A DNA stretch of 64,000 nt from Akkermansia muciniphila (GTDB taxonomy: Bacteria > Verrucomicrobiota > Verrucomicrobiia > Limisphaerales > F1-80-MAGS106), in assembly GCA_945865375.1 (NCBI GenBank), contig CAMBEJ010000004.1, positions 1 to 64,000 of the forward strand, given 5' to 3'. Each line of letters starts with the position of its first letter. Position 1 is the first letter of the stretch. The notes beneath the pieces were generated by a model. The model ran no database searches, was not told the DNA's origin, and saw only the letters and a program-made list of their open reading frames with translations. Positions 2,352-19,591 of the stretch are shown piece by piece. The position numbers and the translations under genes were made by a program.

Positions 2352-5300
2352 TCACTGTTGCGAGGATGCTGATTCGTCCGTCTGCTTCAAGGCTTCCACC
2401 ACCTGCGCGAGGAAGTCGGTGTCTACGAAAGGCACCTGCCCGAAAACAACTTCGGGAGTGCCTTCGAGCTTCGCGGCGAGATGACCTTTGCCGAGGAGAC
2501 GCTCCGCGCCCTTTTCACCGAGGGCGATTTCGGATGTGCCTTCGCCGTCAACGCGGAGCACGAGACGGTTGCCGAGATTTGCCCGAAGCTGCATGGGCAT
2601 GACGTTGGCGTCTGGGCGCTGCGCGGCGAAGACCAGCGAAATGCCTGCGGCGCGGGCCTTCACGCCGAGTCGGCCAACAATGTCCGACACGGCATCTGAG
2701 TATTCTGGCGTCATCATCCATTCGGCGAACTCGTCGTGAATGACCCAGAGAAAAGGCAGGCGCTCGGTCGCAGTCGGTTTCTTGTTCAGGTCAAAGATGT
2801 TGGAAACCCGGTTCTCTTTGAGGACCGAGTAGCGCCGGTTCATTTCACCGACGAGTTCATTCAGCGTGTGGATGGCCTTGTCCTGGGCGTCGATGATACC
2901 GCCTTGCAGATGAGGCAAGCCCTCGAACGCTAAGTAGTCCACGCCGAGCTTCGGGTCGATGAGCACAATCCTCGCCTGCGCGGCTGTGTTGGTGCAGGCG
3001 ATGCCCAAGATGATATTCTGCATCAGCACCGACTTGCCGCTGCCCGTGGAACCGGCGATGAGGGTGTGTGGCGCGTTGGACTTCGGAGAAAGAAACAACG
3101 GGCTGCTGTCTTCCTCTCGCACGGCGATGAGCAGGTCGTGATTGCCGTGAGTGCAGTTCGGGTTCCATTTCTTCCAAACGTCCGGCAAATGCAGCACACG
3201 ACGATTCGGGCGGGCAATGGCCAAGGCGACGACGCATGGTTCGGCGCGGACGGAAATCACGTTTAGCCCGTGAGTGGTCAGGAATTCGGAGCGCCGTTTG
3301 AACACCTGCTCGACCGTGAGGTTCGCGCTTCCTTGGAATTTGAGCAACGCGGCGTTTGGCGTCAGTGTCTTCGTCAGCAGCTTCGATTGGAGCTGGAATT
3401 GCTGCAACGCGCCTTTGCACTGGCTCTCGACTTGCCGCAGCCATTCCTCGTCCTTTGCGCTGTCTTGGGAGCCTCCCAGATAGCCGGCGATGAGTTGCCC
3501 GACCTGCGCACACGGCCATGCGCCTGCGGGCGTGACTTGTGGTGCAGGTGTCGGCGCTGGCGCAGGAACGGGCGACGGAGTTTGAGTAGACATTCCTAAT
3601 GAGGTTGTGGCTGTCGGCGGCGGGCCTTTACCGCCGCCCTCGACATGCGCATTGCCCTCACTTCCCGGTTCGTCGTCCTCTTTGCGCCGATGACCAATCT
3701 GGATGCGGTCTGAGGGCCTCCGGTAGGTCTGCTTTTTCCAGATGTCTTCGCCTGCGTTGGCTTTTCGGATGGGCGTCGGGTTCACGTCCTTGGCATAGCT
3801 TAACACCAACTCGCGCAACCGCCCTCGAGAGAACACTTCCTGCCAGGAATCCTCGGACTCAGCGACGGTCACAAAGTCTGAGCACCCCGGCGCGTCAGAC
3901 GGGCCTGACACAAAGATGTGCGAGTAGCCGCGCATGAAGATGCCGCACTCCCCGCAGCGCACCGCCCTGCGCCACGCGGCCAAATCGATGGGTGAGTTTG
4001 CGGGGAACTGGATGCCATTGAGCATCAGGTCGGAAAAGCGCGACAGCCACAGGTCGCGGTCGAGCCGCTTCGGGTCTCCGAAGAGGGCGTCGTTGATGCG
4101 GCGCACCGTGTCGCGCAGTTGCTTTTGTGATTCCTTTCGCTTCGTCGAAAGACTGGCGTAGTCAATGTATTTGGACTCCGCCACAATAACAGCCAGTTGG
4201 AGTTTTCCGTCCGGCGTCTGCTCCGGCGTGAGAGCGAGGATGTCGGCAATCTGCTCCTCGCGCTCGCCGAGCCACTCGGCGTAGTCGTCGAGGAAATACC
4301 AGCCGAAGCGCCGCGTCGCACCGAGTTCGTGGCGAATCATGTAGCGACTCAGGACGACGCCCATGAGTTCGCTGGCATTACGACCGCGCTTCGCGGCACG
4401 CAGAACGATGTCGCCGGAGATCTCGTTCGCGTCGTTGATGAACTTCTCGGTCAGTTCGCGGTAATCGGTTTCGTTCAGCTCAAGGTTCAGGTTCTTCACG
4501 CGACCCAGCACCATCGAGCGCAGCAGGCTCAATGATGCTGTCGATGAAATCAGAATGTTGCGTCCTTGCGTCCCGCCCTGCTTGCAGCGGATAACCTTGA
4601 CGTTCTGGTTCAGCAATTGGCGGCGGTCGAGAAGCTCGTCGTAGTTCACCACCCAATTTCCGAGGTTGTGAATCTCTTTGAAAATGCTGGCGGTCTGCGG
4701 ATCGTTGAAGTCGAGCTTGCGGGCTGGAAGCAGGCGCTTGCTTTCGATGCCATCCCAGTCGCCCCGGATGAACGTGGTCAACGCGGTGATGAACAACCAC
4801 CCCTCCTTCGTCTGCACCGGGCAGCACAAGTAGACCACGGATTTCATATCATCGCTCGGTGACGGACGGCGGCGTGACCAGCGGGCGGGAATGAATGTCT
4901 CGGAGTCCACTGGCACACAAGTCTCTGTGTACCACTCGACGCCCGCGTGCCGGGCGATGACATCCTGCAAGAACACCATGTCCGCCGGAGGGCCGTCCTT
5001 CGGGTCGGGCACCGGTGCCTGGTCGGCCATGATGCCGATGCGAAGCCTCGCCATGAAATCCTTGGCGGCCTCGCTGGACACGAACGAGTCCGCGTCGGCG
5101 TCCGACGACTCGATAATTTTCTCGTAGAGTTCGCGTAGCTTCGCCCCATCGCGGTGTCGCAGAATGATTTGGCAGCGCATGTCATCCTCATCCTCGTGCA
5201 GCTCGTTCATCTTATCCACAAGAGCATAGGGCAGCCGCGCTGAGTCGCAGTTGTAGAGCACGACCGAAAGGTTGGTCCGCTCGTGCGGGTAGAGGGACAG

Positions 5301-7631
5301 GAACCGTTTGGTCAAATCGACGATGAGCGTGGATGTCTCCGCCGGACTCTCGTTTGTGTCGTCGAAACCATCGTTGCTGATGACCGGCGACTCATGGAGG
5401 CTGTAGTCGAGATGATGGTCGGTCAGCGAAAGGAGCTCGGGCTTCTTGTCGTGCCACCCCATAACGATTTCCGGGTAGTAGGGATGCGCCAGTTCGGCTT
5501 CGAGTTCCTTGAAGAACAGCGGTGGATCACCGAAGAAAACGTTCTCGATGGTCAGCAGATCTCTGAGCAGGGACGCGACTTGAAGAGCCTTGTTTGCCAT
5601 CGCCGAGAGCCGAAGCGGATGCCACGGGGCAACGATGGCTGTGACGCGGCCACCTTCCACAATCACGGAGCCGATTTGCAGCAGTGGCCGTAAAAGACTC
5701 TCTCGATTGCGGTCGCCCTTCGCGTCCCGGCAAAGGGCATCGAGCAACACGCCGTAGTCCTCCGTCTGCCTGACCATCGCTTTGCAAGCCAGCCCTTCCT
5801 CGGCGAAACCTTTGACCGCAGCCTGGTAGCTCTGCTGAAATGCTCGAAACAAAGTGAGCAGCTTCGAGGCGGTCGCCTCGGAAACGAGTCCGTCCTGCTG
5901 GGCTTTCGTCAAATTCGACGGCCATAGCAGCGAAATGTCGTTTTCCTTCTTGTAGGTGGAAACGAAGGAACCCCGGTCTTGCCCATAGGCCGGATAAAGC
6001 GTGCGGACGTTGCGGAGGTCGAGCGACTGGTAGCGGCCTTTGCCACTGACTGGCTCGCGGTTCACGCGGCAGAGCATGAAGGGATGATCCGCGAGCCGCA
6101 GCCAGTCACTGGAAAACTCTCCGGCGATGGAGTTCGGATCGTAAGTCCAGACGAGTTGCTTGAAACATGTCTCAGTCGTGCCGGTGGATAGTTCGAGTTC
6201 CAGCTCCAATAGGAATTTCAATTGCAATGCGGCCTTGGCGGCGGACTTGTTGACGTAGGGCTTCGTCGCCTTGCGCCAATGGCCGGTCAGTGCCTCGAAG
6301 TTCATCAGGTCGCCTACGTCCCACGAGACACGGTTTCCGAAGAGCGGCTTCAGTCCGCGATAGCGCCGGGCGAAAAACAGGCCCGCATCCTCACTCAGGT
6401 CCTTGAGGTCTTTCTTCGTGCGCCGGTCGCATGTGATTTTCAGACGGCGCTTGGACGATGGCATGTCCTGGTCGAACAATCGTTCCAGACACAACGCGAT
6501 CCCGAGCAGAAAATCCTCCGTCTCGATGGGTGTCCCGAAAATGAATCTGTCCCACCTCGACTTGAGTGACGGCTGTTCCTTGAGTTCGTTCCGGTGCCGT
6601 CGGTAAAAATCCTCATCTTCGTCCTGCGCCTCCGTGCGGTTGGTCTCGCGCAGGCGGACAAGGTAGTCGCGCTCATCCGCGGTCAGCAGCGCCTCATCGC
6701 GCTCGTCGTAGAATTCGAGTGTGGCTTTGCCGAGGTTGAATTTCTCCTTCTTCAACCCGTCGAACAGCGGCTTCACCATCTCCCACTCGCATTGGGCAAG
6801 GTCAGCAGCCTGTTGGTTCCACCCGCTCTCGGCAGCGATGAACGCTTGGATGGTCGGATGAATTGCGTCCGGGATGGAATCCTTCACTTTGACGAACGAC
6901 CCCGCCAAATCATCTTCGAGCAGCAACGCTTGCGTGGGTGTTTGCTTTACCAGATAGCAGGCACGTTTCCTGATGACCTGCGCGTAGAGCGCCTTCCATC
7001 TGGATGTGTGACCCGCGTTCTTGTCATTGAGTGCGGATGCGAACGCCGTGTCTTTCGGAACATGCAACGCGGGCAGCGCGACACCGAGAGCTGCCAGAAC
7101 GGGCTGTCCGTCCTCAATCGCCAATCGCGTGTGCAGAATGTATTCAGCGAGCCGGTCCAGTGCGAATGAACGGACTTCGAGCAATCCCTGCAACGCTTTT
7201 ACCCACCAGTGCTGATGCTCGGCGAGGATGGGCAGTCCCTCGGCAGCCCGGATCACCCAGAGTTCGGGATGCGCATAAAGCTGCGCTGCGCCAACTGGCA
7301 CGAGTTCCTTGAGCGACTGCTCTTCGTCGTCGCCTGTGTTCGCGACGAGCAGCGCGGACTTGGGGCAGGCGGCATTTCGGAAATACGTCGTGCGCTCATT
7401 TGTGAGCACCTGCGCTGGCAAGCCGCGTCCGCCGACGAAGTGAATCGGAAGTTTGATTTCGACGAGCGAAGACAACGAGGCATCGTCGAGGATGGTCTTC
7501 GCGACCGCAGCGGTCTGGTCGGCGCTCAGACAGTCGAGGAGATAACGGGCGACGCCGGTCGAGTCTTCCTCCGTGAGCCGGTCGCGCAGGTATCTCGCGA
7601 CAACCTTGCCGATGAGTTGGTCGCTGGTCAT
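2352..7631 (-). CDS. Giant FtsK/HerA-type ATPase, DptH/SspH-like
   Basis: A 1759-residue protein. The last ~240 residues form an FtsK/SpoIIIE-type motor: Walker A AGSTGSGKSVLM near residue 1527, LIDPKLGVDYL, Walker B LPFLWVIHDEFAEW near 1625-1638, and AAQRPDANVM. A proline/alanine-rich linker (about 1337-1370) separates it from ~1330 residues without a recognisable motif. A very large N-terminus plus a C-terminal FtsK domain is the layout of DptH, the third gene of the phosphorothioation-dependent restriction set. It overlaps the upstream gene by 4 bp (ATGA) and closes a three-gene module. The DptH/SspH assignment is from architecture and position, not alignment. A HerA-type translocase of another defence system is the main alternative. 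Confidence 0.7.
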   Translation of the reverse strand: MTSDQLIGKVVARYLRDRLTEEDSTGVARYLLDCLSADQTAAVAKTILDDASLSSLVEIKLPIHFVGGRGLPAQVLTNERTTYFRNAACPKSALLVANTGDDEEQSLKELVPVGAAQLYAHPELWVIRAAEGLPILAEHQHWWVKALQGLLEVRSFALDRLAEYILHTRLAIEDGQPVLAALGVALPALHVPKDTAFASALNDKNAGHTSRWKALYAQVIRKRACYLVKQTPTQALLLEDDLAGSFVKVKDSIPDAIHPTIQAFIAAESGWNQQAADLAQCEWEMVKPLFDGLKKEKFNLGKATLEFYDERDEALLTADERDYLVRLRETNRTEAQDEDEDFYRRHRNELKEQPSLKSRWDRFIFGTPIETEDFLLGIALCLERLFDQDMPSSKRRLKITCDRRTKKDLKDLSEDAGLFFARRYRGLKPLFGNRVSWDVGDLMNFEALTGHWRKATKPYVNKSAAKAALQLKFLLELELELSTGTTETCFKQLVWTYDPNSIAGEFSSDWLRLADHPFMLCRVNREPVSGKGRYQSLDLRNVRTLYPAYGQDRGSFVSTYKKENDISLLWPSNLTKAQQDGLVSEATASKLLTLFRAFQQSYQAAVKGFAEEGLACKAMVRQTEDYGVLLDALCRDAKGDRNRESLLRPLLQIGSVIVEGGRVTAIVAPWHPLRLSAMANKALQVASLLRDLLTIENVFFGDPPLFFKELEAELAHPYYPEIVMGWHDKKPELLSLTDHHLDYSLHESPVISNDGFDDTNESPAETSTLIVDLTKRFLSLYPHERTNLSVVLYNCDSARLPYALVDKMNELHEDEDDMRCQIILRHRDGAKLRELYEKIIESSDADADSFVSSEAAKDFMARLRIGIMADQAPVPDPKDGPPADMVFLQDVIARHAGVEWYTETCVPVDSETFIPARWSRRRPSPSDDMKSVVYLCCPVQTKEGWLFITALTTFIRGDWDGIESKRLLPARKLDFNDPQTASIFKEIHNLGNWVVNYDELLDRRQLLNQNVKVIRCKQGGTQGRNILISSTASLSLLRSMVLGRVKNLNLELNETDYRELTEKFINDANEISGDIVLRAAKRGRNASELMGVVLSRYMIRHELGATRRFGWYFLDDYAEWLGEREEQIADILALTPEQTPDGKLQLAVIVAESKYIDYASLSTKRKESQKQLRDTVRRINDALFGDPKRLDRDLWLSRFSDLMLNGIQFPANSPIDLAAWRRAVRCGECGIFMRGYSHIFVSGPSDAPGCSDFVTVAESEDSWQEVFSRGRLRELVLSYAKDVNPTPIRKANAGEDIWKKQTYRRPSDRIQIGHRRKEDDEPGSEGNAHVEGGGKGPPPTATTSLGMSTQTPSPVPAPAPTPAPQVTPAGAWPCAQVGQLIAGYLGGSQDSAKDEEWLRQVESQCKGALQQFQLQSKLLTKTLTPNAALLKFQGSANLTVEQVFKRRSEFLTTHGLNVISVRAEPCVVALAIARPNRRVLHLPDVWKKWNPNCTHGNHDLLIAVREEDSSPLFLSPKSNAPHTLIAGSTGSGKSVLMQNIILGIACTNTAAQARIVLIDPKLGVDYLAFEGLPHLQGGIIDAQDKAIHTLNELVGEMNRRYSVLKENRVSNIFDLNKKPTATERLPFLWVIHDEFAEWMMTPEYSDAVSDIVGRLGVKARAAGISLVFAAQRPDANVMPMQLRANLGNRLVLRVDGEGTSEIALGEKGAERLLGKGHLAAKLEGTPEVVFGQVPFVDTDFLAQVVEALKQTDESASSQQ

Positions 7632-9166
7632 CGGGCCTCCGCGTGATACGGGTTGACGACATAGGCGCAGCCGTCCGACAACCGCCGCAAGAGGCCCAGG
7701 CTGCCGAGCCGTTGTTCAAGACGCCGGCAGTTGCCCTGAAACGCCTTCTTGTCGAACTCGTCCTTCGAGAGCATCTGCTCGGCTTCCCTGTCCCCGAAGA
7801 CCAGTCCATATCGGAGATGCAGACGAGCAAGGAACTGATGAAGCTCGATTCGCTTCTCCACATTGGCGAACAGCAATGTTTTGAGCAGCGCGTCGGTGGG
7901 TGCATAACGCAGCTTCACGGTGCCGCGCTTCGACACGAGTCCGATTTCGCGACCATAGTTGCGGTGGATGTTCGCGACGTGCTGGCGGTGGCGCTTCATC
8001 GCCGCTTGACGCAGTGCCCCAATCAACTGTTGGGGGTCAGTTGAGACTGCCGGGTCTTCCTCCCAACGCGCCTTATTACGGAGAATTTGCCGACAACTTT
8101 CCACCGCTCCATCGCCAGTCACTGCCCTCTGCCAATCATCCGATCGCTCAATGTTCATGATGAACGTCTCGACAGCCTGGGCAGGCAGTAAATTGTTAGA
8201 CTGATAGAAGTCACAAGAAATCTGGCGGACGAGCGTCTTCTTCGGTGCAACCACTTCACAAATGAGGTTCAACGGTTTGGAGGAGCCGAGAAGCTGCTGA
8301 GATACCGTCAACTGATATTTCAGCAGGTGCAACCCGGCCAGGTTGACAAGATGCGGGAACACATCGAAGCCCGGAATGTTGAGCCGCAAGATGGCCAGCC
8401 AGTCGTCAGCAAGGCCTTCAAAGCAGGGATGGCTGGTGTAGGGGAGGAATGCATTGGCGCGTTCACTGCTCATGTCCTCCCCGTTGGTCGGCTGCAGACA
8501 CCTGATGATGGAATCCCAAGTCTTGTCCGTTTTGGCCAACCGCCCTTTGAGCGCCGCAAGAAGCTCCTGTTTGCGCGACGTGCGGCAGAACATCAAATAG
8601 AGCATCTCACCTGTCCTGCCGAAGAAGCGTCGGTCGTTGGTCGAGGCGTTGTTGTCCAGGTCCTCGTAGAGACAGTCGCGGCCGTAGGGGAACACGAACT
8701 TCGATGTCCACCGCTTGTTGCTGTCAACTTCGAGGCTGGTGGAGCGCACGAGCGACACGATCTCGCAAAAATGCTCGAAGGAGTGGAAATGGGCTTTAAG
8801 GAAGCCGAACTCCGGGTGGTTGAGGCCCGTGGCCGCGGACTTCATGCGCCGCAGCCACTCGTCCCAGCGGTTGCTGTCGTTGGGATGAGTCATCAAAATT
8901 TCAGGCAGATGCGGATTGTTGAACAGGATGTTGCGAAGGTAGAGCCGGTGAGCAGCCCGATACTTCAACTCGTTCGGCTTGCCCTGCTCATCGAAGGCAC
9001 GCCCCTTGTCGTCTTCGTGAGTGAACACGTTCAGGAACTCAAGGAACACGAACCACGGCAACTGCTCATCGTAAAGGCGGTGCCCCCATATCGCCTCATC
9101 CACCCACATGGAGGACGATTGATCGAAGCTCTCTGGCAACGGCAAGGGTTGAGGCAGCGCGTTCAT
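7628..9166 (-). CDS. Middle protein of the ATPase module, DptG-like by position
   Basis: A 512-residue protein with no nucleotide-binding or nuclease motif that I can see and no signal peptide or membrane segment. It opens with DEAIWGHRLYDEQLPW and FVFLEFLNVF, and ends with a region rich in basic residues and leucines (KRIELHQFLARLHLRYGL, then CRRLEQRLGSLGLLRRL) that could form a winged-helix-like domain. It overlaps both neighbours by 4 bp, so the three genes are translationally coupled. In dptFGH loci the middle gene is likewise a protein without clear catalytic motifs; that positional parallel is the only basis for the label. Confidence 0.6.
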   Translation of the reverse strand: MNALPQPLPLPESFDQSSSMWVDEAIWGHRLYDEQLPWFVFLEFLNVFTHEDDKGRAFDEQGKPNELKYRAAHRLYLRNILFNNPHLPEILMTHPNDSNRWDEWLRRMKSAATGLNHPEFGFLKAHFHSFEHFCEIVSLVRSTSLEVDSNKRWTSKFVFPYGRDCLYEDLDNNASTNDRRFFGRTGEMLYLMFCRTSRKQELLAALKGRLAKTDKTWDSIIRCLQPTNGEDMSSERANAFLPYTSHPCFEGLADDWLAILRLNIPGFDVFPHLVNLAGLHLLKYQLTVSQQLLGSSKPLNLICEVVAPKKTLVRQISCDFYQSNNLLPAQAVETFIMNIERSDDWQRAVTGDGAVESCRQILRNKARWEEDPAVSTDPQQLIGALRQAAMKRHRQHVANIHRNYGREIGLVSKRGTVKLRYAPTDALLKTLLFANVEKRIELHQFLARLHLRYGLVFGDREAEQMLSKDEFDKKAFQGNCRRLEQRLGSLGLLRRLSDGCAYVVNPYHAEAR

Positions 9167-11073
9167 GGCATGACTTCAACGGCCCGTGGGTCGGGATTTC
9201 CTTGCTCGGTCAATGACAGCAGCGTCAGTGAAACCGTCGAACCTGCCGGCACTTCCTCTTTCGCCTGGCGCTTGAAGTATGCGGCAATCAATTGGCTCTT
9301 GAACGCGAGCAAATCCTCGTAGCACTCCTTCGAGAAGCTGGCGGGCAACGCGCCTTCCATCGCGATGCGCGACAGAAACTCGTAACGTATGAGCGTCAAG
9401 TTGAAGTCTGCGATATTGTCCGGCGCGAAGAAAACTGACAGCAGCACCCGGCCGCTCGCCGGGTCGAAACGCAGTATCACCTTCTCGCCTTTGCTCGGCT
9501 CGACCGACACACGCTCGACAAGGATCCGGCTGACCTTGGCCTGCGAGTGGTTGCCGCTCGTCGCCAGATAAAGTTCCCGGTCGCTGTTGATGAGCATACC
9601 AGTGAACACCCGGTTCAATCCCTTCACCAACCGGGACACGAGCGGACGCTTCACGACCGCGCCTCGCTTGACCACCTCTACAATGTCATCAAGGTATTCC
9701 CCGGCAAACCTGAACACCGTCAATTCCCAAAGGTTCAACTCCAACTCGGCTTCCCTTGGGATTTTGAAGAACAACCCTCGCCGCTGGGCGACCAGCATTT
9801 GCAGAAACTCTCTGTCCTTTTCTGCATCCTCGCTCGTGCCTTCGATGTATTCGTGCTTCGCCGCGTAGAAGCGGTCGTCTGCGCCGTAAAATCTGTCCTT
9901 CGCGATGAACCTGTCGAAATAGCCGCCGAGGATCTCGTCGTCCTCACCGAAGATGAGCAAGTTGTCTACGCGATTCGACGTCTCGTAGCCGATTTGAAAC
10001 CTCTCAAGGAAATCAAAGATGGTGATGGACTGCCGCCGAATTTCGGAAAGGTTCGCGCCGAAAATGTTGTTGTAGAGGCTGGCCTTGGACACCGTGCCAG
10101 CCGCGATGACTTTCGGGACGTCGCTGGGGAGCATCAAGTGCTGGCTCACATCCGGGTGGCCGAGGACGGAATTTGTGAGCAAAAGGAGAATCTGGCGCAC
10201 GGGGACATGCAGCCCGTTGTAATCGCACAATTCCAGCAGCGACCGCAGCCGCGCCCTGACCAGTGGTGTGCCGAGCAATTCGTAGTTCTGCCGGATGGGG
10301 CACTTGGGGCCGAACACGTCGTTCTCACCGGGCAGACCCTGTTTGAGTTCATCCCAGCCCGGATGCGCGAGGAACTTTTTGATGGCTAGGTCGAACAGCT
10401 CGGCGGAACTGGCGCGACTCAGGTTGAAAAACTTCAAACGCACGCCCGGCTGCTCCTGCCGGTCTTCGACGAGCAGGTCCTCGAATACCTGCCGCGCACG
10501 TTTCACGTCCTCCGTGTCCTTCAAACGACGGAAGGACTCGATGAGCTGACCGTCGTTAGCCGCGATCAGAAAAATCTCGTCGGCATCCGGACTGAACAAC
10601 GAGTGACAGAACTTTTGGAGCAACGCCTCCTTGTCTACGTCCCACTCAGCGCCCTGCTGTGGTGCCCAGCCGCTCAGGTCGCGGATGAAGTGAATCTTCA
10701 CCGAGCGATACAGGCTCGGCTCTTCCGAATCCGGCCACGTCATCCGGTCTTTCGGATAGTGAAAACTGATGGTCAGGTAGGGGTTGTCAGATGCCCAATC
10801 TTCGTCATGTCCTTCCAACGCCTTCCACACTTGCCGACACAGATGCGTTTTGCCGTCCCCTGCCGTGCCGGTGAGAATGACCGAAACCGGGTCAGTCGTG
10901 GCGCGGTTGAAGGAATCCGCGATGCGCCGCTGGTACGGATGCTCGAAGTCAATGGGCGCAATTCCCTGACGACGAGCCGACCGTTGAATCGTCTCATCAT
11001 ACATGTTGTCATTCCGGGGCACCGGCCCGTAATGACGCAGGAATTGTAACTTCTCAAACCTCGGAGGTATCAA
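9163..11073 (-). CDS. P-loop ATPase, DptF/SspF-like by context
   Basis: A 636-residue cytoplasmic protein. A P-loop GTAGDGKTHLC sits at residues 69-79 after a short N-terminus, and EIFLIAAND about 100 residues later may be the Walker B strand. AAA-type ATPases with a GDGK P-loop occur as the first gene of dptFGH modules (family members I remember have GSSGDGKS), so this one is related in style but divergent. It starts the tightly coupled three-gene module and overlaps the downstream gene by 4 bp. Upstream is a frameshifted small gene that overlaps its start. Confidence 0.6.
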   Translation of the reverse strand: MIPPRFEKLQFLRHYGPVPRNDNMYDETIQRSARRQGIAPIDFEHPYQRRIADSFNRATTDPVSVILTGTAGDGKTHLCRQVWKALEGHDEDWASDNPYLTISFHYPKDRMTWPDSEEPSLYRSVKIHFIRDLSGWAPQQGAEWDVDKEALLQKFCHSLFSPDADEIFLIAANDGQLIESFRRLKDTEDVKRARQVFEDLLVEDRQEQPGVRLKFFNLSRASSAELFDLAIKKFLAHPGWDELKQGLPGENDVFGPKCPIRQNYELLGTPLVRARLRSLLELCDYNGLHVPVRQILLLLTNSVLGHPDVSQHLMLPSDVPKVIAAGTVSKASLYNNIFGANLSEIRRQSITIFDFLERFQIGYETSNRVDNLLIFGEDDEILGGYFDRFIAKDRFYGADDRFYAAKHEYIEGTSEDAEKDREFLQMLVAQRRGLFFKIPREAELELNLWELTVFRFAGEYLDDIVEVVKRGAVVKRPLVSRLVKGLNRVFTGMLINSDRELYLATSGNHSQAKVSRILVERVSVEPSKGEKVILRFDPASGRVLLSVFFAPDNIADFNLTLIRYEFLSRIAMEGALPASFSKECYEDLLAFKSQLIAAYFKRQAKEEVPAGSTVSLTLLSLTEQGNPDPRAVEVMP

Positions 11074-11409
11074 GTTCCCCCGGCAACAAGCGCTCCGGCA
11101 ATTACCTGTTGCTCTCTCGTCGGTAGCGTTGCCAGATGTGCGGCGGCATCGACACTATCGAGTTTCCTGCTCTCAAAGAACATACGCACTGGTTTGGCAA
11201 AACGTTGGGTGCACGATAACTGCTTGAGCATCTTTTGGCGAAAACCCGACGCGGTCGGACAAGGCTGCAAAGCCTCCAAGCTTTGTCATTGCGATGTGCG
11301 TGAGTGGGAAAGGGTGATTCTTTCTACGAGTGCATGGGATGAGCACTGCAAGAGTTTCCTTTAATTCCTCGTCATCTGCCCCGCTGGCTGTTGACGGCTT
11401 CCTCATCAT
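11070..11409 (-). pseudogene. Frameshifted small gene between the ParB-like gene and the ATPase
   Basis: Two overlapping leftward frames join into one protein of about 110 residues if one A is removed from the AAAA run near 11232. The first frame starts at an ATG overlapping the ParB-like stop (ATGA) and runs to RVGFSPK; the second supplies MLKQLSCTQRF, RKLDSVDAAAHLA and PTREQQVIAGALVAG, ending on the ATPase start. The joined product looks like a compact helical protein that follows ParB-like genes, but I do not recognise the family. The frameshift could be genuine decay or a sequencing slip. Confidence 0.5.
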
Positions 11410-12246
11410 GCGACGAAACCTTGGTTTCCCAGCCAGTCAGTCAGGACTTTGGCAACCAGTTCCTCTGGTTCCATTTCGAGCGATTTCGTCGCTTTCGAGA
11501 GTCCTTTTCTCAGGCCGTCGGCCAGTGTGATGATGATGTTTTCCTCCACATGGGGTTTCATCGCCTTCTCAAGAATATCTGCAGCAGATGCTTTCCGGTC
11601 ACGCTCACCGTAAAGAACAAGGCGTCGCTTTTGGTGGGTGGTCGGCTTGTATTTGATGATCAGCTTCAGCAGTTCTTCCGCTTTGTCCAAGTTATCCTGG
11701 GCAGCGCGAATCGCACGCTTCACGTCAGCCGGTGAAGCCTTGTGGTTCTTAATCCACAATTTCATCGCAGGCGTTGCTCGCGCCTCAATCAGAATAAAAT
11801 CGCGAACCTTCCTCAAAGACAGTCCGGTTTCCTGCGAAACTCTTCGTTCATCTTTGCCCAGCGTGTTGTAAAGGAACATAATCGCTTTCACTTTATCGTC
11901 ATATTCCAATTCAAGGTGCTGCATGCTTTCCACGAGTGATCGAACAACGGCCTCTGTCTTTGAAACATGACCGATAAAGACAGCACGAATCTGCGGCCAT
12001 TTCAGGATTTGCTTGTGAGCTAGAAACCGTCGTTTCCCTGTGGTGAGTTCGCAACGGGACTTTCCATATTCACCCATCAGGACGACGGGCTGCAAAAGGC
12101 CATGTCGCTTGATACTGGCCGCCAGTTCGTCGAGATCTTTAGTTTCATGGCGTAGACGGACGTTGTCTTCGCTGACCTTGATGTCTTTGAGCGAGACATC
12201 GTGGATAGTTCCAATGGAAATTGCCGTGCTGCTTATTCTGGTTCAT
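11406..12246 (-). pseudogene. ParB-like nuclease-domain (IbrB-type) protein, frameshift near the start
   Basis: The frame encodes a ParB/Srx-fold domain: VSLKDIKVSEDNVRL, then LDELAASIKRHGLLQPVVL, then LTTGKRRFLAHK, followed by a helical region with a KorB/ParB-like HTH (SQETGLSLRKVRDF). This frame has no ATG upstream of the domain. A plausible ATG at 12246 is in another frame and joins after six codons by a 1-nt shift near 12226. The part after the internal TTG at 12095 is open for 229 codons but lacks half of the ParB fold. ParB-like proteins paired with PP-loop reductase-like proteins are known (IbrA/IbrB), and a collapsed PP-loop gene lies just upstream. The next gene overlaps its stop. 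Confidence 0.6.
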
Positions 12247-12251
12247 ATTGT

Positions 12252-12570
12252 TCAGAGTTGACAAATCAGGCACGCCTTCGGCCCATGATCCTGGTCCTCC
12301 ATCCCCGCCAGCACTTCGACGAGACTCTTGTTGCCACGGTTGGCCTTCCTGCGTTCGTCATGTTCGGCGTAGCGGCGCTTGATGCCAGCAACGGTTTCCG
12401 GCTTACGCAGCTCGCTCAACGGCATCCCCTGGATCCAAGTGAAAGTCTTGCCGGGGTCGTCGGTGATTTTTTCGTATTTCATGGCTGCATCGATCGCGCA
12501 TGTGGAGCGCGAGGGCGGTGCTGTCCTTGCCCCCGGACATGCAGAGGATGTGCCGCGTTGGTTTGCTCAT
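12252..12570 (-). pseudogene. PP-loop (PAPS reductase/sulfurtransferase-type) gene collapsed by internal deletion
   Basis: From the ATG at 12570 the reading gives MSKPTRHILCMSGGKDST, a clear SGGKDS PP-loop opening of the phosphoadenosine phosphosulfate reductase/DndC/IbrA superfamily. After ALALHMRDR the frame breaks. A second frame, starting at 12482, carries what looks like the C-terminal end: KYEKITDDPGKTFTW, SLVEVLAGMEDQ and a final CLIC motif. Members of this superfamily are several hundred residues long, so most of the middle is missing. In DNA phosphorothioation such an enzyme installs sulfur (DndC/SspD); IbrA is the other candidate. Either way this copy cannot be functional as read. 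Confidence 0.6.
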
Positions 12571-12806
12571 GGTTTCGATTTGTCCGCTTTCACCAACTTA
12601 AACCAGATGGCGCTTGTCGCCTGCGCCAAACCGAGTCGTTTTTTCCTGGCCAGTCATCGGACGCTTATGGCATCGTTTCCGAACTAAAACACCTGATTTT
12701 ACGGGCTGATCAAATCAACTCAGTCACTATCCGGAGGGCTTTGATCCGCGCATTGTTCTCAAGAGACTGTTCACGTGGCGCACAGGCAACGGCTGTAAAT
12801 GTGGCA

Positions 12807-13262
12807 CTAGGCAGAATGCACTCTCCCGTCACAAAGCCCGCCGCTGCGGTGATCAACCACTTGATAAATCCGTTTTTCGGGAATTACCCCTCTTACCCCT
12901 CCTTCGGGATGCTCCATGTCCCCATCGTAACGGGGGATCAAATGAATATGGACGTGCGAGACGGTCTGACCTGCCGCCTGTCCCACGTTAACACCCACGT
13001 TGTACCCGTGTGGCCGGAAATCAGCGTCCGACTTTGCCTTTGCCTCCCAAACCAGTTCAAACGCGGCTTGTCGCTCGCCCCCGGTCAACTCAAAAAAGCT
13101 CACCACGTGCCGAAAAGGAATGATCAATAAATGCCCTTTGGCAACCGGGTAGAGGTCATAGCGAGCATAAAACAGGAGATTTTGCAGGACGATGCCAGGA
13201 GGCACCGTCGAACAGAATGGGCATAGATCGTCCAAAGTAGTTGGTAACCGCAACGTGGTCAC
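12807..13262 (-). CDS. HIT-family nucleotide hydrolase/transferase
   Basis: The signature HxHxH is present as SHVHIHLIPRY, followed by GGVRGVIPEKRIY; the N-terminal half has CPFCS and HLLIIPFRHV, typical of bacterial HIT (Ap4A hydrolase-like) proteins. I chose the GTG at 13262, which overlaps the stop of the upstream HNH-S24 gene by 4 bp (GTGA), over the longer frame from 13304. Length is 151 aa. HIT enzymes cleave dinucleotide polyphosphates or nucleotidyl adducts. Being coupled inside a defence-type operon is unusual and suggests a nucleotide-linked role, which is inference. Confidence 0.8.
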   Translation of the reverse strand: MTTLRLPTTLDDLCPFCSTVPPGIVLQNLLFYARYDLYPVAKGHLLIIPFRHVVSFFELTGGERQAAFELVWEAKAKSDADFRPHGYNVGVNVGQAAGQTVSHVHIHLIPRYDGDMEHPEGGVRGVIPEKRIYQVVDHRSGGLCDGRVHSA

Positions 13263-15103
13263 TTTATGGAGGTTAACATTTGGATGAATTCGGCTATGAC
13301 GCATAGGTCAACATCGTCTTTTGGAGTAAACACAAGAACCGGAAATTTCTCGCGGTCAGAATTGTCAGGAATCAACTGAATGGATTCATGGCTCCAGCCA
13401 TCCTCATCGTTTGACTTGGTGCTTCGATAACGTTTCACCGTGTATGCTCCGCCCGTTTCTGGATCCGCCATATCGCGCTTTTGCACCAATACAATGCGTC
13501 CCTGTCTTGTTCCTTCAACCGGGCTCCGAAACACACAATACGAACCGTCCCGGATTGTTGGGTACATTGATTCGCCCACGACCTGTGTCACGAACATTCC
13601 CTTAGAAAGGCGTTTTGAAAACCCGTGTTTTGCAACATCAATCCAACCCTCAGGCTCCGGCGCATCGTGCCCCAAAAGGCCCCCAGCAGCTACTTTCAAC
13701 GAAAGGAACGGGAGGCAATTGACCCCAGGTGTCCTCCGGCTTTCGATTGGAAAAAAATCGATGATATGTTTTGCCGGAATGGGCTCTTCCTCATCAGTCG
13801 CAGAAAGTTCAATCGGGCGTGCATCATTGACCGTCTTAGGCTGAGTTCCAATCACAAAGACCGGCAAGCGCATTCGCCAACCGGACTGGAATCCTTGATT
13901 GGTGGCAATTTGTGCCTGTGGCAAGATGACCTCGCGATACTTGGCTGCGAATCCTTTCTCGCCCAGCCCGAGCAAGTCGGCGGCGTCCTTCTTGAAGCAA
14001 TCCGCGTAGTCCTCCAGAAACCTGGGCTTCTTCTTCGCGGCGTCCATCGCGGCGAAGTGGAGCTTGGCGAGTCGCGGTATGTAGAGGTCGAGGTCAGGCA
14101 GCACATCGTTCTTGCTGGAGTTCGTCGCAGGTTCGACCGGCGTCAAATTCCAGAGCAAGTCGTGAACGACGAAGCTCCACGGCAAGAAGTGGTCGATGGA
14201 GAAGCTGTCGCCAAGCTGTCGCTCCGAGTAGATGTCCCGGAACTCGGCAGGCTTTCCCGCCCTCTCGAAGTCGGTCCGCACGAACCGCCAGAAGTCACGG
14301 GCGGCGGTGAGTTGCCGCGCTGTTGGCGCACGGAGTTTGTTCACCACGCCTGGCACGTTCGGGTTTCGCGCTTGCAAGTAGAGCGCGAGGTGATGCTCGG
14401 AAAAGGACTGGACGATGCCGAAGTTTTCCATCAGGAACCAGCGCCACGAATCGTTCACCCGAATTGAACGGCGTGTTCCTGTGCCCTCGAAATGATACGG
14501 GCTGGCGTAGGGCGTCTTCTGGCTCTCGATTGCCATCTCTTGAATCTCGCGCGTGCGGGTCAACTCATTGCGCTCTGGCCCCAGCTTCTCCGCAAACCAC
14601 GGACTCAGGAAGCGCGTTGGGACGTATCGCTTGAAGTAGTCCAGTTTCGTCTGCGCTGCGGCGGAGCCTTCGACAAACTTGCGGATCGTGTCTGGGGGAA
14701 CGTTCGGAGGCAAACCGGACGCCTCCTGAATCTCCAGCACCACGTGCTGTAGTTTGTCTTGGCGGCCCAGCGATAGGCGGTAGAGACACACCGGATGCCA
14801 AGCGGCAACGGCCATCTCCATGAAGATGTCCGCCAACCGGAGCGACTGATCGTTGCCACGTTTGATGAGCGACAGAATGGCGAGGAACCAAACCAGCTTG
14901 TAGGAGTTGGTCGTGTCCTTGAAAACCTGTCCGAGAAAGAAGGTCTTTTCCGGGTAGCGGAGCGCGGCGCCCGCGAGAGCGTGTGGCTGATTCGTTGGGC
15001 TGTCTTGAGCCACCGCTTGTTCGGAGCATACGCCCAGGGCACCGCCAAGGACGGGCAAGCTCCGGCAGAAATCAGGGCGCGATGGTGTTCGGCTCTCATT
15101 CAT
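13259..15103 (-). CDS. HNH endonuclease fused to an S24 (LexA/UmuD-like) peptidase domain
   Basis: A 614-residue two-domain protein. The N-terminal part has TNSYKLVWFLAIL and MEMAVAAWHP and leads to an HNH motif: SIDHFLPWSFV at 302-312 (DH at 304-305), WNLTP at 318-322 and NSSKND at 328-333. The C-terminal part is an S24-type peptidase: VVGESMYPTI with the nucleophile Ser near 512 and YTVKRY with the general base Lys near 557. S24 domains self-cleave (LexA, UmuD, phage repressors) in response to RecA filaments. A nuclease tethered to such a switch suggests damage-dependent activation. It overlaps the small upstream gene by 8 bp and the HIT gene by 4 bp. Confidence 0.85.
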   Translation of the reverse strand: MNESRTPSRPDFCRSLPVLGGALGVCSEQAVAQDSPTNQPHALAGAALRYPEKTFFLGQVFKDTTNSYKLVWFLAILSLIKRGNDQSLRLADIFMEMAVAAWHPVCLYRLSLGRQDKLQHVVLEIQEASGLPPNVPPDTIRKFVEGSAAAQTKLDYFKRYVPTRFLSPWFAEKLGPERNELTRTREIQEMAIESQKTPYASPYHFEGTGTRRSIRVNDSWRWFLMENFGIVQSFSEHHLALYLQARNPNVPGVVNKLRAPTARQLTAARDFWRFVRTDFERAGKPAEFRDIYSERQLGDSFSIDHFLPWSFVVHDLLWNLTPVEPATNSSKNDVLPDLDLYIPRLAKLHFAAMDAAKKKPRFLEDYADCFKKDAADLLGLGEKGFAAKYREVILPQAQIATNQGFQSGWRMRLPVFVIGTQPKTVNDARPIELSATDEEEPIPAKHIIDFFPIESRRTPGVNCLPFLSLKVAAGGLLGHDAPEPEGWIDVAKHGFSKRLSKGMFVTQVVGESMYPTIRDGSYCVFRSPVEGTRQGRIVLVQKRDMADPETGGAYTVKRYRSTKSNDEDGWSHESIQLIPDNSDREKFPVLVFTPKDDVDLCVIAEFIQMLTSIK

Positions 15104-15317
15104 CCGGCCAGAAATCTTTTCCGAGCTCGCCGACGTAAGCCGAGTGCAATTCGCTCTCCCCGTCGTGGTAGCCCCGCGAGTGTCGCAGGTGGAATTCGGC
15201 GTCTTGCCTTGTCGCCCACAGCCGCTGCTTGCCGAACAGGATGACCTCTCGGCTTCGCGGTAGCACGATGCCGAAGCGACCTATCAATTTTTGTTGAGGC
15301 TTAGTCACAACAATCAC
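15096..15317 (-). CDS. Small hypothetical protein, 73 aa
   Basis: A GTG start at 15317 overlaps the stop of the preceding small gene (ATGTGA), and its own stop overlaps the HNH-S24 start by 8 bp, so it sits coupled between two genes. The protein starts MIVVTKPQQKLIGRFGIVLP and is basic and aromatic with no known motif. The tight packing is the main reason to believe it is real; the function is unknown. Confidence 0.55.
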   Translation of the reverse strand: MIVVTKPQQKLIGRFGIVLPRSREVILFGKQRLWATRQDAEFHLRHSRGYHDGESELHSAYVGELGKDFWPDE

Positions 15318-15679
15318 ATGGCGTCTTCATTTACCTCGCGGCGCGAAATCTTCGCCGGCCTCCCGTGACTCTTAATACTGCGCCGGGCAGCCAAACTCTG
15401 CATCATGACCTTATGCACATTGTAATCTGCAATCGCGCGGCGAGCTTCGTTCTCCAGTAGCTCACTTTGCCTGTGCGTCGTTTCAAGACACAGACAGGCA
15501 CACTCCTCGTCAGAAGCGATTTGAGCACGACGAATATCGAACTCATGCGCCATCGAAACACACGCGCCGATGAGCCGCATGGATGCCATTAAAGCTTCAG
15601 CCTTCCGTTCGAGAGCAACGTCATCACTCTTTTCACTATTCGAAGAGTTCCGTTTGGATGCGGTCTTGCAAGATTTCAT
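15314..15679 (-). CDS. Small hypothetical helical protein, ~121 aa
   Basis: The frame is open from 15826, but the first part lies inside the ATPase gene. The ATG at 15679 (MKSCKTASKRNSS) gives a 44-bp overlap; an ATG at 15715 is also possible. The product is predicted helical (ERKAEALMASMRLIGACV, ELLENEARRAIADYN) and ends in a basic tail with RPAKISRREV. No family is recognised. It is coupled to the next gene by ATGTGA. Confidence 0.5.
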   Translation of the reverse strand: MKSCKTASKRNSSNSEKSDDVALERKAEALMASMRLIGACVSMAHEFDIRRAQIASDEECACLCLETTHRQSELLENEARRAIADYNVHKVMMQSLAARRSIKSHGRPAKISRREVNEDAM

Positions 15680-17675
15680 GATGTTTTCGCTGTTGTTCGC
15701 GATTCCGCTCGCCATGTCCGTCGCCAAAGTCTTTTGATTCCGGTGACAGCCTGAGTCCTTCCCTCCAAATGCCGTCCGCCCAACCATTCTGTCTTGTGAT
15801 TCCCTCACGCCCATACCTGTCGGCATTCAGTTCAGCGGTGTGGGTCATGACCCATTCCCACCGTTGAACCTCCTGCACGAGGCTGGCAAGATTGCTCAAT
15901 GGGTGCGGCACCGCCACGACCCAATTTGGACGGGTCCTGAGTTCGTCGATTTTGGTGAACTCAAGCGCGACGTCGCGCTCATTGGCGGTTTCGCACAGGG
16001 GAACCACGATCACGCCATCTGCGTTGCTGGGATTTTCCATCACCGGCCCCACCAGTTCCGCGACCGAACAGTAGCGCAGGTCGAAGTGCCGGAGATTTCC
16101 AGTTTCGATGTAATGTCTGCGAGCGACGATGGGCCGTGTCTCGAGGTGCTCCTTGATGAACGATGCCACACGTTGGGGCGTCTGCACAGCTCGCCGCGCA
16201 TCGTCGTAGGCCTTTTCAAGGTCCACGGATGTGTGCGGCCATAGGCAGAGGCCTCGACTGCGACCCCGATCGTAGAGGACCCGCTTGATCCGTTGGAGTT
16301 TTTCCAACGCAGCCCTGCTCTCGCTTTGGAGTGCGTGGTCGTCACCCGCCACAGCACACAGCACCGATTCCTCCGAGGCCAACAAGTCGTCGTTCAGCAG
16401 ATTCAGGATGCCGACAGTCTTGAGAATCTGAAGGCTCAGCGCCGCGTCTGTCGCATAACTTTCGATAACTGACTCAATGAGATTCCAATGACTCCGGTAG
16501 CTGTGGACCGTCAACCTGTGGCCGAAGTTCGTTCGCACGTAGTCGAAAAGATTGTGCAGGCGGTATGGTTCGGCATCGTGCAACTGGTGTTCACTGAAGG
16601 CTTGCAAACCAAAAGGCTCATTCGCGAGCAAGAAACTGAACAGGGAACGTTCGTTTTGGCCGAAGCGCCGGAATATCCGGACAAGAACGGGCAGGACCGT
16701 GGCATGCAGTGGATACAGCCGTGGGGCCAACTCCAACAGCGGCTGTGGTTGCGCCGCGCCGAACCAGCCAAGGTCAACGGCCCGGTGCATCGCTTGGCGC
16801 ATCGAAGACGCCTGGCCTTTGGGAACCTGGTCAACGCGCACGTTGAGCGCGGAGGAGATGAGATGCCCGACCTGCTCAATGGGCTGATTGAAGACAATTT
16901 CATCGAAACGGCCGGCGACCTTTTCCCACTCGCGTTGCGCGGACTGGTTGAGATGGTCCGCGTAGGCGTGGAAGCCTTGGTGCAGGAGGCACACAACGAG
17001 CAGCGGTTCGTTGGCACTGCGGGACGCCACCTCCGCAAGGCGCTGCAAAATGAAAACGTCCTGCCGATGCGGGTTCAGAGCCGCGAATTCAAGGAATTTG
17101 CCCAGCTCGTCAATAATCAGCAGCAATCCTTGTCCCTTTGAATCGGCGATGATTTGAGAATTCGTGTCAACGATCGCGTCTAGGATTTGCTCATCACCCG
17201 GTTCCGTCTTTCCGTCGCGCAACTGCTGGATCTTTCCAGAAATCCTCGACTTCGCACCCCGCTTGTAGACTTGCGAAATGCTGGCATGCAGCGCTTGGAG
17301 GATGGAGGTGCCGAGCGGCTGACGCGAACAGGTGACGAGCACCGGCAGAAACGATGGCTGCGCCACCCCGAGTTTCTTGAAATCGATAACCCGGCGAAGC
17401 TGCGGAGGAAGCTCGCTGTCGCGGCCTCCAAGAAGGTTCGCCAACAAAAGCGCAAAACTGGATTTGCCTGACCCATAATCACCAGTTACGCGCCATGCCC
17501 TGCGGCCCGACTTGGGACGAAGGCCCTCGCCAATACGATCGCAAGACTCCTGGACAAAATCGGTGCGGACATAACCGGAGAGCGCCTCGGAATCGTGGAA
17601 GTCGCGCTCAAGGTGCGTCGAGCGCAGGAATCGGCTCTTGATGACAAAGAGGTCCGCGATGCGCTTTTCAGACAT
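15636..17675 (-). CDS. P-loop ATPase of the defence block (BrxC-like by resemblance)
   Basis: A 679-residue cytoplasmic ATPase. Walker A GDYGSGKS is at 65-72 and Walker B GLLLIIDELGKFLE at about 183-196, followed by a long helical C-terminal half. Its start MSEKRIADLFVIKSRF and the LxxLAEVASRS segment recall large AAA+ proteins of BREX (BrxC/PglY) and related systems, which are usually 1000 residues or more. Here the homology-like part fades after WVMTHTAELNADR, so the protein may be a short version or C-terminally truncated. It overlaps the DUF4007 gene by 8 bp, indicating a functional pair. Confidence 0.7.
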   Translation of the reverse strand: MSEKRIADLFVIKSRFLRSTHLERDFHDSEALSGYVRTDFVQESCDRIGEGLRPKSGRRAWRVTGDYGSGKSSFALLLANLLGGRDSELPPQLRRVIDFKKLGVAQPSFLPVLVTCSRQPLGTSILQALHASISQVYKRGAKSRISGKIQQLRDGKTEPGDEQILDAIVDTNSQIIADSKGQGLLLIIDELGKFLEFAALNPHRQDVFILQRLAEVASRSANEPLLVVCLLHQGFHAYADHLNQSAQREWEKVAGRFDEIVFNQPIEQVGHLISSALNVRVDQVPKGQASSMRQAMHRAVDLGWFGAAQPQPLLELAPRLYPLHATVLPVLVRIFRRFGQNERSLFSFLLANEPFGLQAFSEHQLHDAEPYRLHNLFDYVRTNFGHRLTVHSYRSHWNLIESVIESYATDAALSLQILKTVGILNLLNDDLLASEESVLCAVAGDDHALQSESRAALEKLQRIKRVLYDRGRSRGLCLWPHTSVDLEKAYDDARRAVQTPQRVASFIKEHLETRPIVARRHYIETGNLRHFDLRYCSVAELVGPVMENPSNADGVIVVPLCETANERDVALEFTKIDELRTRPNWVVAVPHPLSNLASLVQEVQRWEWVMTHTAELNADRYGREGITRQNGWADGIWREGLRLSPESKDFGDGHGERNREQQRKHHEILQDRIQTELFE

Positions 17676-18621
17676 GATTTCTCCTTCCGTCGAAGATGTC
17701 GTTCAACAAATCAAGGCTCTCACGACGCTCGTTTCGTTGAACCTTTTGGAGAAGAGCGGACTCGACATACGTAAAACAATCATTGGTCTGCTCCGCCAAT
17801 CGCTCGACCCGCGCCCGCACGTCTTCCTCTGGCAATTTATAAATCTGGCCCGGGCTGCCGTGTCCGTGGGCGATCTCTCGAAAACTCAACGTGCTTTCCA
17901 TGGGATGCCGTTCGTTCCAGAAATCGTTCAAACTGTAGACGAAAAGTTCCGGTGTGATGTCTGGCTTCTCCTCACGCCGAAAAGCATAGACTGATTCGGC
18001 TCGTCCGCCATTTCCGTCCCCAAGGCGTTCGCCCACCCGAACGATAAGTTCCAACTCGGTGAGCGGAGAATCGAGGTTGTCTTCCTGAATTTCACCTTTG
18101 CGACCACGGGTGCGGACGTATGTATGAAGAAAAGTGTCCCAGTGCTGATCGATGGTCACAGCGGAAAGGCCGTCGTCAAGCCGGGCAGCCTCTTTGTGCA
18201 GCGTCTTGATGATGACACTGGGCACCAACTCCGGTTCCTGCCAGCGATTTAGCAGGAAGTCCCATGCCAAAAGGGGCGTTTTCGTGTCGGTGGATAGGTT
18301 CCAGTGGATGAGCCAGAGCGTGCGGAGATCTTCCAAAAACGGGTCGTGTCCCCCTTCGCCAAGCAGTGCCCGGCCAAATCCGCTCAACGAGTGCCCCATT
18401 CCTCTGGACGGGGTATCCATCACGCCCGCAACTTGCGCCCAAAAGCGGATCGAGCGAACCATATTCTTGCCGACCCCCAGGTCCACCATCGCCTTTTCGT
18501 CGTCGGAAAAGAGCTTGGAATTGTCCTTCAAGCCGCGCACAGCTTTGGGCAGCCAGGTGTAGCGGCACGCGAACGATTCGTGCCCAGAGATTCGATAGGT
18601 TGGTTCCGCAACTGTGTTCAC
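17668..18621 (-). CDS. DUF4007 family protein
   Basis: The N-terminal motifs TYRISGHESFACRYTWLPKA and LGVGKNMVRSIRFWA are diagnostic of DUF4007. The frame is open back to 18852, but that extension crosses REP-like palindromes and looks non-coding. I propose GTG at 18621 (317 aa), with ATG at 18654 as an alternative. As I recall, DUF4007 genes tend to lie near PAPS-reductase-type sulfurtransferases and defence ATPases; the biochemical role is not known. This is the first gene of the leftward block and overlaps the ATPase start. Confidence 0.8.
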   Translation of the reverse strand: MNTVAEPTYRISGHESFACRYTWLPKAVRGLKDNSKLFSDDEKAMVDLGVGKNMVRSIRFWAQVAGVMDTPSRGMGHSLSGFGRALLGEGGHDPFLEDLRTLWLIHWNLSTDTKTPLLAWDFLLNRWQEPELVPSVIIKTLHKEAARLDDGLSAVTIDQHWDTFLHTYVRTRGRKGEIQEDNLDSPLTELELIVRVGERLGDGNGGRAESVYAFRREEKPDITPELFVYSLNDFWNERHPMESTLSFREIAHGHGSPGQIYKLPEEDVRARVERLAEQTNDCFTYVESALLQKVQRNERRESLDLLNDIFDGRRNHV

Positions 18622-18733
18622 ATGATGACAACATTGGAACGTGGCCGCTGACATCGCTCTTGTCGAGTGTGGAATCGAGGCACAAAAGACGATCCGGTGC
18701 ATCTCGAAGTTGTTGGTGGCTCCATCGGGCGCA

Positions 18734-18894
18734 GCGGTCGTCAGTGACGACCGCCCACATGACGACCGCCCACCGCACAGGCAACCACAGGTCGGCCACC
18801 CGTTCCATGCTTGTGGGCGGCCGTCACCGACGGCCGCGTTCACTAGCCCCATGCTTGTGGGCGGCCGTCACCGACGGCCGCGTTCACTAGCCCC
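18734..18894. repeat. Three REP-like palindromes, two within a 44-bp tandem duplication
   Basis: A palindrome with arms GCGGTCGTC and GACGACCGC around a 3-nt loop lies at 18734-18754. Two identical palindromes with arms GCGGCCGTC and GACGGCCGC lie at 18817-18837 and 18861-18881, each inside a 44-bp unit repeated in tandem (18807-18850 and 18851-18894). All three share the GTGGGCGG-type flank. They sit just upstream of the DUF4007 gene, in the gap between divergently oriented genes. They may act as REP sites, protein-binding sites or transcription barriers. Confidence 0.8.
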
Positions 18895-18994
18895 ATGTTT
18901 TCCGCCCCTGGTTCATTCCACCAACAACTTCGGAATGCGCCCAAGACGATCAAGCTTCATAGAATTCTTGTCTGATAGATGATGACGATGTTTG

Positions 18995-19228
18995 ATGACT
19001 GACTTGAGAACGATCATTGATTTTCCCGATGATCAATTGAAAGCACTAGGGGAGATTTGCGCCGAAAAGAAAGTTTCGCGGGCGGCGGTCATTCGCCAGG
19101 CCGTGGCCGGATACATTCAACAATCAAAATCCGGCAAGGGCGAGCACGCCTTTGGCCTCTTGAAAACGAAAAAGATCAACGCCTTGAAATATGAGGAGAA
19201 ACTCCGCGCGGATTGGGATAACCGATGA
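18995..19228 (+). CDS. Ribbon-helix-helix (CopG-type) antitoxin, VapB-like
   Basis: A 77-residue protein from ATG 18995 (a TTG lies one codon upstream). The N-terminus MTDLRTIIDFPDDQLKAL followed by KKVSRAAVIRQAVAGYI is the ribbon-helix-helix pattern of CopG-type antitoxins. Its 3' end overlaps the start of the PIN-domain gene by 4 bp (ATGA), the usual vapBC arrangement. It would bind the operator and neutralise the toxin. Confidence 0.8.
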   Translation: MTDLRTIIDFPDDQLKALGEICAEKKVSRAAVIRQAVAGYIQQSKSGKGEHAFGLLKTKKINALKYEEKLRADWDNR

Positions 19229-19591
19229 AAGCCGTCTTTGACACTAACATCCTGGTTGATTATTTAAACGGCGTTCCCGCCGCAAAGCGCGAGTTGGAAC
19301 AATACGAAGAGGTCAGCATCAGCGTTGTGACCTGGATGGAAGTGTTGGCTGGCGTGGAAGGCATCGAAGAGGAAACTGTCACCAGAAGTTTCCTTTCCCG
19401 TTTCAAAATCCAGCCAATTGACGTGCCGCTCGCCGAGTGGGCGGTAAAATTCCGCCGTCATCACAGAATGAAACTGCCGGATGCGATCACCTGGGCCACG
19501 GCCATGGGAAATGGGCAGAATTCTTGTCACGCGCAACACGCGAGATTTTTCCGAGAAAGAGCCCGGCATTCGTGTCCCCTACAAACTCTGA
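19225..19591 (+). pseudogene. PIN-domain VapC-type toxin with a C-terminal frameshift
   Basis: PIN-domain RNases have four acidic residues. Seen here: VFDTNILVDYL (Asp near residue 5), WMEVLAGVEG (Glu) and LPDAITWATA (Asp). The in-frame reading then turns to GQNSCHAQHARF and runs on to 19725. A 1-nt shift near 19508, next to GGGAAATGGG, restores GRILVTRNTRDFSEKEPG and a stop at 19591, which is the normal VapC ending including the last conserved Asp. As read, the toxin lacks its fourth acidic residue and has a 45-residue junk tail. Confidence 0.75.

Follow-up and report, generated by a model that had tools for sequence, protein, structure and literature searches.

Among the described defence systems, those of the SspABCD-SspFGH type are the closest to the locus reported here. 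SspFGH damages DNA that lacks phosphorothioate (PT) and impairs the growth of PT-free E. coli (Wang et al., PMC8092258). Both sspE and sspFGH are absent from most sspBCD loci (2,678 loci versus 196, 199 and 36; PMC8092258), and the conserved in-operon HNH family described below, often accompanied by a HIT protein, is a concrete candidate effector for sspBCD loci without sspE or sspFGH.

The window, which is the whole stretch of 64,000 nucleotides analysed in this study, belongs to genome G000, a MAG-like assembly of 5.79 Mb in 266 contigs with 93.6% completeness. According to the ORF list, twelve ORFs are arranged head to tail on the minus strand at 2352-18852, with short overlaps. SspH/SspG, SspG/SspF, and SspF/small gene each overlap by 4 bp, SspB/SspC by 8 bp, and HNH-S24/HIT by 46 bp; a 73-aa ORF overlaps its two neighbours by 4 and 8 bp. 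Protein identities were obtained by Pfam and PADLOC profile searches of the block products, with ten block proteins included in the PADLOC scan. The preliminary description had the named genes running leftward in a head-to-tail series with short overlaps, from 2352 to about 18621 (the ORF extends to 18852); this layout was confirmed, as were its domain calls, since Pfam detected DUF4007 (E 9e-65), HNH_4 and Peptidase_S24 in one 614-aa ORF, HIT (E 8e-21), ParB_N (E 5e-11), and FtsK/SpoIIIE (E 5e-32). Its view that the block is related to phosphorothioation also holds, and the three-gene ATPase/middle/FtsK end was identified by PADLOC as SspFGH with scores far beyond chance. In contrast, the "different upstream half" it proposed is wrong: the DUF4007 protein is a standard SspB, the P-loop ATPase is a truncated SspC, and the PP-loop remnant is SspD. 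Based on these PADLOC and Pfam identities, the block is an Ssp phosphorothioation locus with an upstream half that is not unfamiliar. Only HNH-S24, HIT, two small ORFs, and the ParB-like gene are additional to the standard Ssp genes, and the unfamiliar part is HNH-S24 with HIT.

The intact sspB ORF (17668..18852, minus strand, as are all block features given below) was matched by the PADLOC SspB profile with an E value of 2e-106, and as DUF4007 homology begins near 18597, translation probably starts near 18621. Of SspC, only the N-terminal part is encoded, by a 679-aa ORF at 15636..17675 (PADLOC E 3e-231, profile positions 1-608 of 1053). The homology extends to about residue 630 of ~1140, leaving the N-terminal ~55%, with the C-terminal ~490 residues gone. 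Neither a second SspC copy nor the C-terminal half was found in genome G000. The phylum sample contained 12 further SspC matches, of which 11 are near full length and one (G117) is weak and partial. The PP-loop remnant at 12252..12555, correctly recognized as such in the preliminary description, consists of the N-terminal 25 codons and the C-terminal ~80 codons of sspD in different frames (PADLOC profile PDLC02782 positions 1-25 and 193-276, end pieces E 1e-11); aligned with the full-length sspD from L056, a relative, it lacks about 0.49 kb. No other SspD was found in genome G000, and two PAPS-reductase-family (PF01507) genes on contig C130, considered as a replacement, gave no SspD match. A cysteine desulfurase (SspA) was not found inside the block either; IscS encoded elsewhere can substitute for SspA (PMC8092258). 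Complete SspBCD-FGH sets are present in the related loci of G261, G029, and G140. Judging from its gene content, G000 as encoded would be unable to make phosphorothioate. With both SspC and SspD broken, the data do not support one intact, functioning system, and the locus is not a member of the working SspABCD-SspFGH systems. It is reasonably probable, in our view, that the block is a decaying SspBCD-SspFGH-type PT defence locus with an embedded accessory HNH-S24/HIT cassette. However, the remaining ssp pieces are still open and show low dN/dS, a sign of purifying selection, so that the decay would have to be recent or the fragments would have been kept.

SspF (9163..11073, Walker A GTAGDGKT; PADLOC E 2e-210), SspG (7628..9166; E 2e-194), and SspH (2352..7631, with a C-terminal FtsK/HerA ATPase; 2160 bits) are all full length, with full profile coverage and 75-77% identity to their G261 counterparts over the whole length (75% for SspF). 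The window thus shows, in nature, an intact SspFGH that lacks its marking genes, a paradox that speaks against the decay reading, as intact SspFGH beside broken marking genes should be self-toxic. Considering that SspFGH needs PT to spare self-DNA, it would have to be silent, inhibited, or already being lost. In HNH-clade relatives that lost parts of SspB, SspC, or SspD, FGH is partly deleted as well: what remains is only the C-terminus of SspH in L048, only a fragment of SspF in L053, a part of SspH in L055, and half of SspG together with SspH in L056. The window may represent an earlier stage of the path taken by these four relatives.

A ParB_N-domain protein is encoded between sspD and sspF (11406..12197), next to small ORFs at 11070..11409 (78 aa, 11173-11409; 69 aa, 11070-11279). 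The expectation that the genes of the block co-occur elsewhere was borne out in part: HNH and HIT accompany ssp genes in other genomes too, but ParB does not recur in the phylum sample of 388 genomes, where no relative was found in the 387 others at E 1e-12. The ParB_N protein was therefore dropped as a system member and is apparently a local insertion. A 170-aa ORF overlapping the end of sspC (15314..15826) has no Pfam or PADLOC match above cut-off, and its reality is uncertain. The block is flanked by an RHH/PIN (VapBC-like) toxin-antitoxin pair at 18992-19725 (plus strand) and, on its other side, by a HicB-like antitoxin at 1799-2203. Farther along, a sequence look at 21155-23321 (plus strand) suggested an arsenic cluster, in which a likely arsenate reductase and a membrane transporter come after an ArsR-like regulator.

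The accessory cassette occupies the slot between sspC and sspD. Its main gene encodes an HNH nuclease part (residues 1-411, 13871..15103), which is kept in relatives, and a C-terminal S24 (LexA/UmuD-type) domain (13259..13870), and is followed by the gene for a HIT protein with an intact HVHIHL motif (12807..13304). The HNH part comprises an all-helical N-terminal domain and a Cas9-like HNH core, of which D304, H305, and N328 are invariant or near-invariant across HNH relatives, a family found in many phyla. The AF2 model of this part is confident (pLDDT 94.5), and that of the whole fusion, built from six sequences, is poor (pLDDT 48.6). In PDB searches with the family profile and the AF2 model, the HNH core alone gave matches, to the HNH of Cas9, and the helical N-terminal domain had no match in the PDB (model and profile) or among viral libraries (model). 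In the S24 domain, the A472-A473-G474 cleavage-like site, S512, and K557 are invariant in six homologous HNH-S24 fusions; with this Ser-Lys dyad and Ala-Gly site, it is predicted to be self-cleaving in the manner of LexA. The same fusion is present in five other genomes, so a chance joining of two genes was rejected as the origin of HNH-S24. The HNH and HIT genes have kept open frames, and purifying selection acts on HNH, S24, and HIT (dN/dS of 0.08-0.20 for pairs with estimable dS, many pairs being saturated). HIT follows HNH in most close relatives and often carries a fused methyltransferase domain in Bacteroidota and Chloroflexota; such methyltransferase-HIT fusions lie directly downstream of the HNH gene in L105 (11047-11913), L103 (11050-11895), and L075 (11056-11952). 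C-terminal S24 fusions were also seen on several defence-type helicases, in addition to an HNH protein, in about 20 of 388 genomes, Verrucomicrobiota-like (e.g. L038 6890-9286; L039 6498-8885 and 10319-12607; L040 7352-9715), and these fusions could possibly serve as a general SOS switch on defence enzymes.

Our results indicate that the HNH protein repeatedly accompanies SspB/C/D, with which it had not been listed before, and that the HNH-HIT accessory is a new part. SspB, SspC, or SspD is encoded within 8 kb in 30 of 88 HNH loci, mostly with HNH downstream on the same strand. The order SspB-SspC-HNH-SspD, where HNH occupies the slot that it has in the window, is found in Cyanobacterium HL-69 and on Geminocystis plasmids; Prevotellaceae have SspB, SspC, SspD, HNH, and methyltransferase-HIT, and in Hymenobacter yonginensis HNH adjoins a complete sspA-BCD-FGH. 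Literature searches for SspBCD with the HNH family, or for HIT with phosphorothioation, returned nothing relevant. In two cyanobacteria SspC is split into two adjoining ORFs (L149 5899-9499, Cyanobacterium HL-69; L150 7419-11289, Geminocystis NIES-3709), which suggests that two separate polypeptides can do the work of SspC. Also noticed within ssp operons, at differing positions, was a pair of large proteins (L033 9535-13880; L047 4547-9120), one of which is annotated in L047 as a sensor histidine kinase.

SspC is 3'-truncated in 8 of the 20 HNH loci in which the sspC 5' end is present (10 of 22 if loci cut 5' by the contig are included), compared with none of 12 loci without HNH (Fisher one-sided p 0.012, with related rows, an HNH set drawn from an HNH-seeded search, and many short MAG contigs). 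After adding 45 plasmid SspC without HNH, p is about 6e-6, again with related rows, and among the plasmid SspC listed, the one with a midway stop comes from Synechocystis and ends at the exact point where HNH follows. Counted on the profile of 1122 positions, the SspC ends are at 73, 85, 262, 304, 503, 522, 603, 690, 694, or 891. When mapped on the HNH tree, truncation, a label that also takes in four loci with SspB stubs only, requires 6 changes, at least 4 of them forced by well-supported branches. Stubs of SspB (the first 28-45 positions) lie directly upstream of intact HNH in L036, L053, and L084. No SspD at all was found in 7 of the 12 genomes with truncated loci, and the L084 genome has a complete SspC-SspD elsewhere. 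Thus, the HNH family stays intact where ssp genes erode, and this association of HNH-HIT with loss of the marking genes is new. Full SspC is nevertheless present in more than half of the HNH-bearing ssp loci, so that HNH does not require the loss. An assembly or binning artefact might be suspected, as G000 is in 266 contigs and many relatives are short MAG contigs, but the pattern is repeated in the finished plasmid pSYSM and in the isolates Hymenobacter psychrophilus (L103) and Spirosoma spitsbergense (L116), and the reading frame runs on across several junctions, making an artefact highly improbable.

The excess of truncated ssp genes beside HNH would also be expected if HNH were antagonistic to PT, cutting PT DNA or being triggered by it, with carriers selected to lose sspBCD and then sspFGH. 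The scattered and independent breakpoints, the broken FGH in L048, L053, L055, and L056, and the absence of SspD from 7 of 12 genomes are in line with such antagonism. However, Hymenobacter, Prevotellaceae, and cyanobacteria carry intact SspBCD together with HNH, and because the survey was HNH-seeded, loci that lost HNH are under-counted and the reverse loss (HNH broken, ssp intact) is not fairly countable; we regard antagonism as quite unlikely.

Alternatively, orf135, HNH-S24, and HIT may form a mobile cassette which inserts into ssp operons and causes adjacent deletions. The 73-aa ORF upstream of HNH (15096..15317) corresponds to the C-terminal half of the 135-aa orf135, as judged from L050, L048, and L036; orf135 is directly upstream of HNH in relatives (L050 1876-2283), fused in frame to SspB in L048, and present as a fragment in L036. 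The compactness of the cassette, its location at different operon points, and the SspB or SspC 5' stubs immediately before it would agree with mobility. But no integrase, transposase, or defined ends were seen, the junctions fall at differing points of orf135, and HNH takes the same SspC-SspD slot in distant phyla. Furthermore, the cassette is nearly absent from viral contigs (1 locus) and phages (1 record), leaving a viral carrier unsupported, and insertion of a mobile cassette seems very unlikely.

A further alternative is a working PT-independent system, in which SspB and the short SspC ATPase find foreign DNA and pass it to HNH-S24 with HIT, SspD being dispensable and SspFGH repurposed. 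The short overlaps are unbroken from SspB to HIT and dN/dS is low. L050 and L055 have SspC ends at the same place (690-694), and SspB, short SspC, and HNH also occur together in Synechocystis pSYSM and H. psychrophilus, where SspC ends at ~522 and 503, respectively, both just past the ATPase part. The pSYSM locus of Synechocystis PCC 6803 (L042 5750-11089), with SspB, an SspC truncated to 563 aa, a LAGLIDADG gene, and HNH, is a tractable test case. On the other hand, no ATPase is left at breakpoints 73, 85, 262, and 304 of 1122 or where the break is inside SspB (28, 45, 278), HNH is also found in loci with full SspC and SspD, and a recognizable SspD corpse is still in the window. A working PT-independent system is thus unlikely.

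The most likely scenario is a decaying Ssp locus at which an HNH-S24/HIT effector, responsive to SOS, persists after the marking genes. LexA undergoes RecA-stimulated self-cleavage, and HIT proteins remove nucleotidyl adducts. By analogy with this biochemistry, and from the motifs present, the S24 domain would couple HNH to the SOS response: upon DNA damage, RecA-stimulated self-cleavage near A473-G474 would free HNH from its S24 tail, and HIT would strip nucleotidyl (e.g. AMP) adducts. The locus would make no phosphorothioate, and HNH, once a partner of SspBCD, would be a second nuclease, sufficient by itself for restriction or suicide. If HNH-HIT has no need of PT, it can be kept while the marking genes go. 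A broader and rather doubtful proposal is that HNH-HIT is an undescribed, mark-independent effector class of PT systems, unlike SspE and SspFGH, whose arrival frees or drives the host to discard SspBCD and leaves a stand-alone DNA-damage-triggered nuclease, the S24 SOS switch having been added in Verrucomicrobiota and relatives. The window offers a testable link between the HNH nuclease and the loss of DNA marking.

Compared with known systems, the block has no Dnd modification set: DndD and DndE, as described previously, and also DndC have no counterpart among its proteins, and PADLOC gave only a marginal DndF P-loop hit (E 0.05). Like LexA/UmuD S24 peptidases, the fusion has a Ser-Lys pair and an AAG site, whereas its S24 domain is at the C-terminus of a nuclease and no HTH DNA-binding domain was found. 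Like the SspE/DndI effectors (GmrSD-like DUF262-DUF1524 HNH proteins; PMC11662687), it is an HNH nuclease tied to a PT operon; unlike them, it matches HNH_4 only, not DUF262 (GmrSD_N) or DUF1524, and combines a Cas9-like core with a helical N-terminal domain that has no solved relative. BREX type 4 (PMC12839542) shares homologous DUF4007, BrxC/SspC-like ATPase, and PAPS-reductase-type components, but the block has SspFGH instead of PglZ or BrxL, neither of which was matched among the ten block proteins scanned with PADLOC. The closest likeness is to SspABCD-SspFGH (PMC8092258), as SspB, the N-terminal part of SspC, the SspD remnant, SspF, SspG, and SspH are retained in the same order, while the window differs in its truncated SspC, broken SspD, non-adjacent sspA, and added HNH-S24, HIT, and ParB-like genes.
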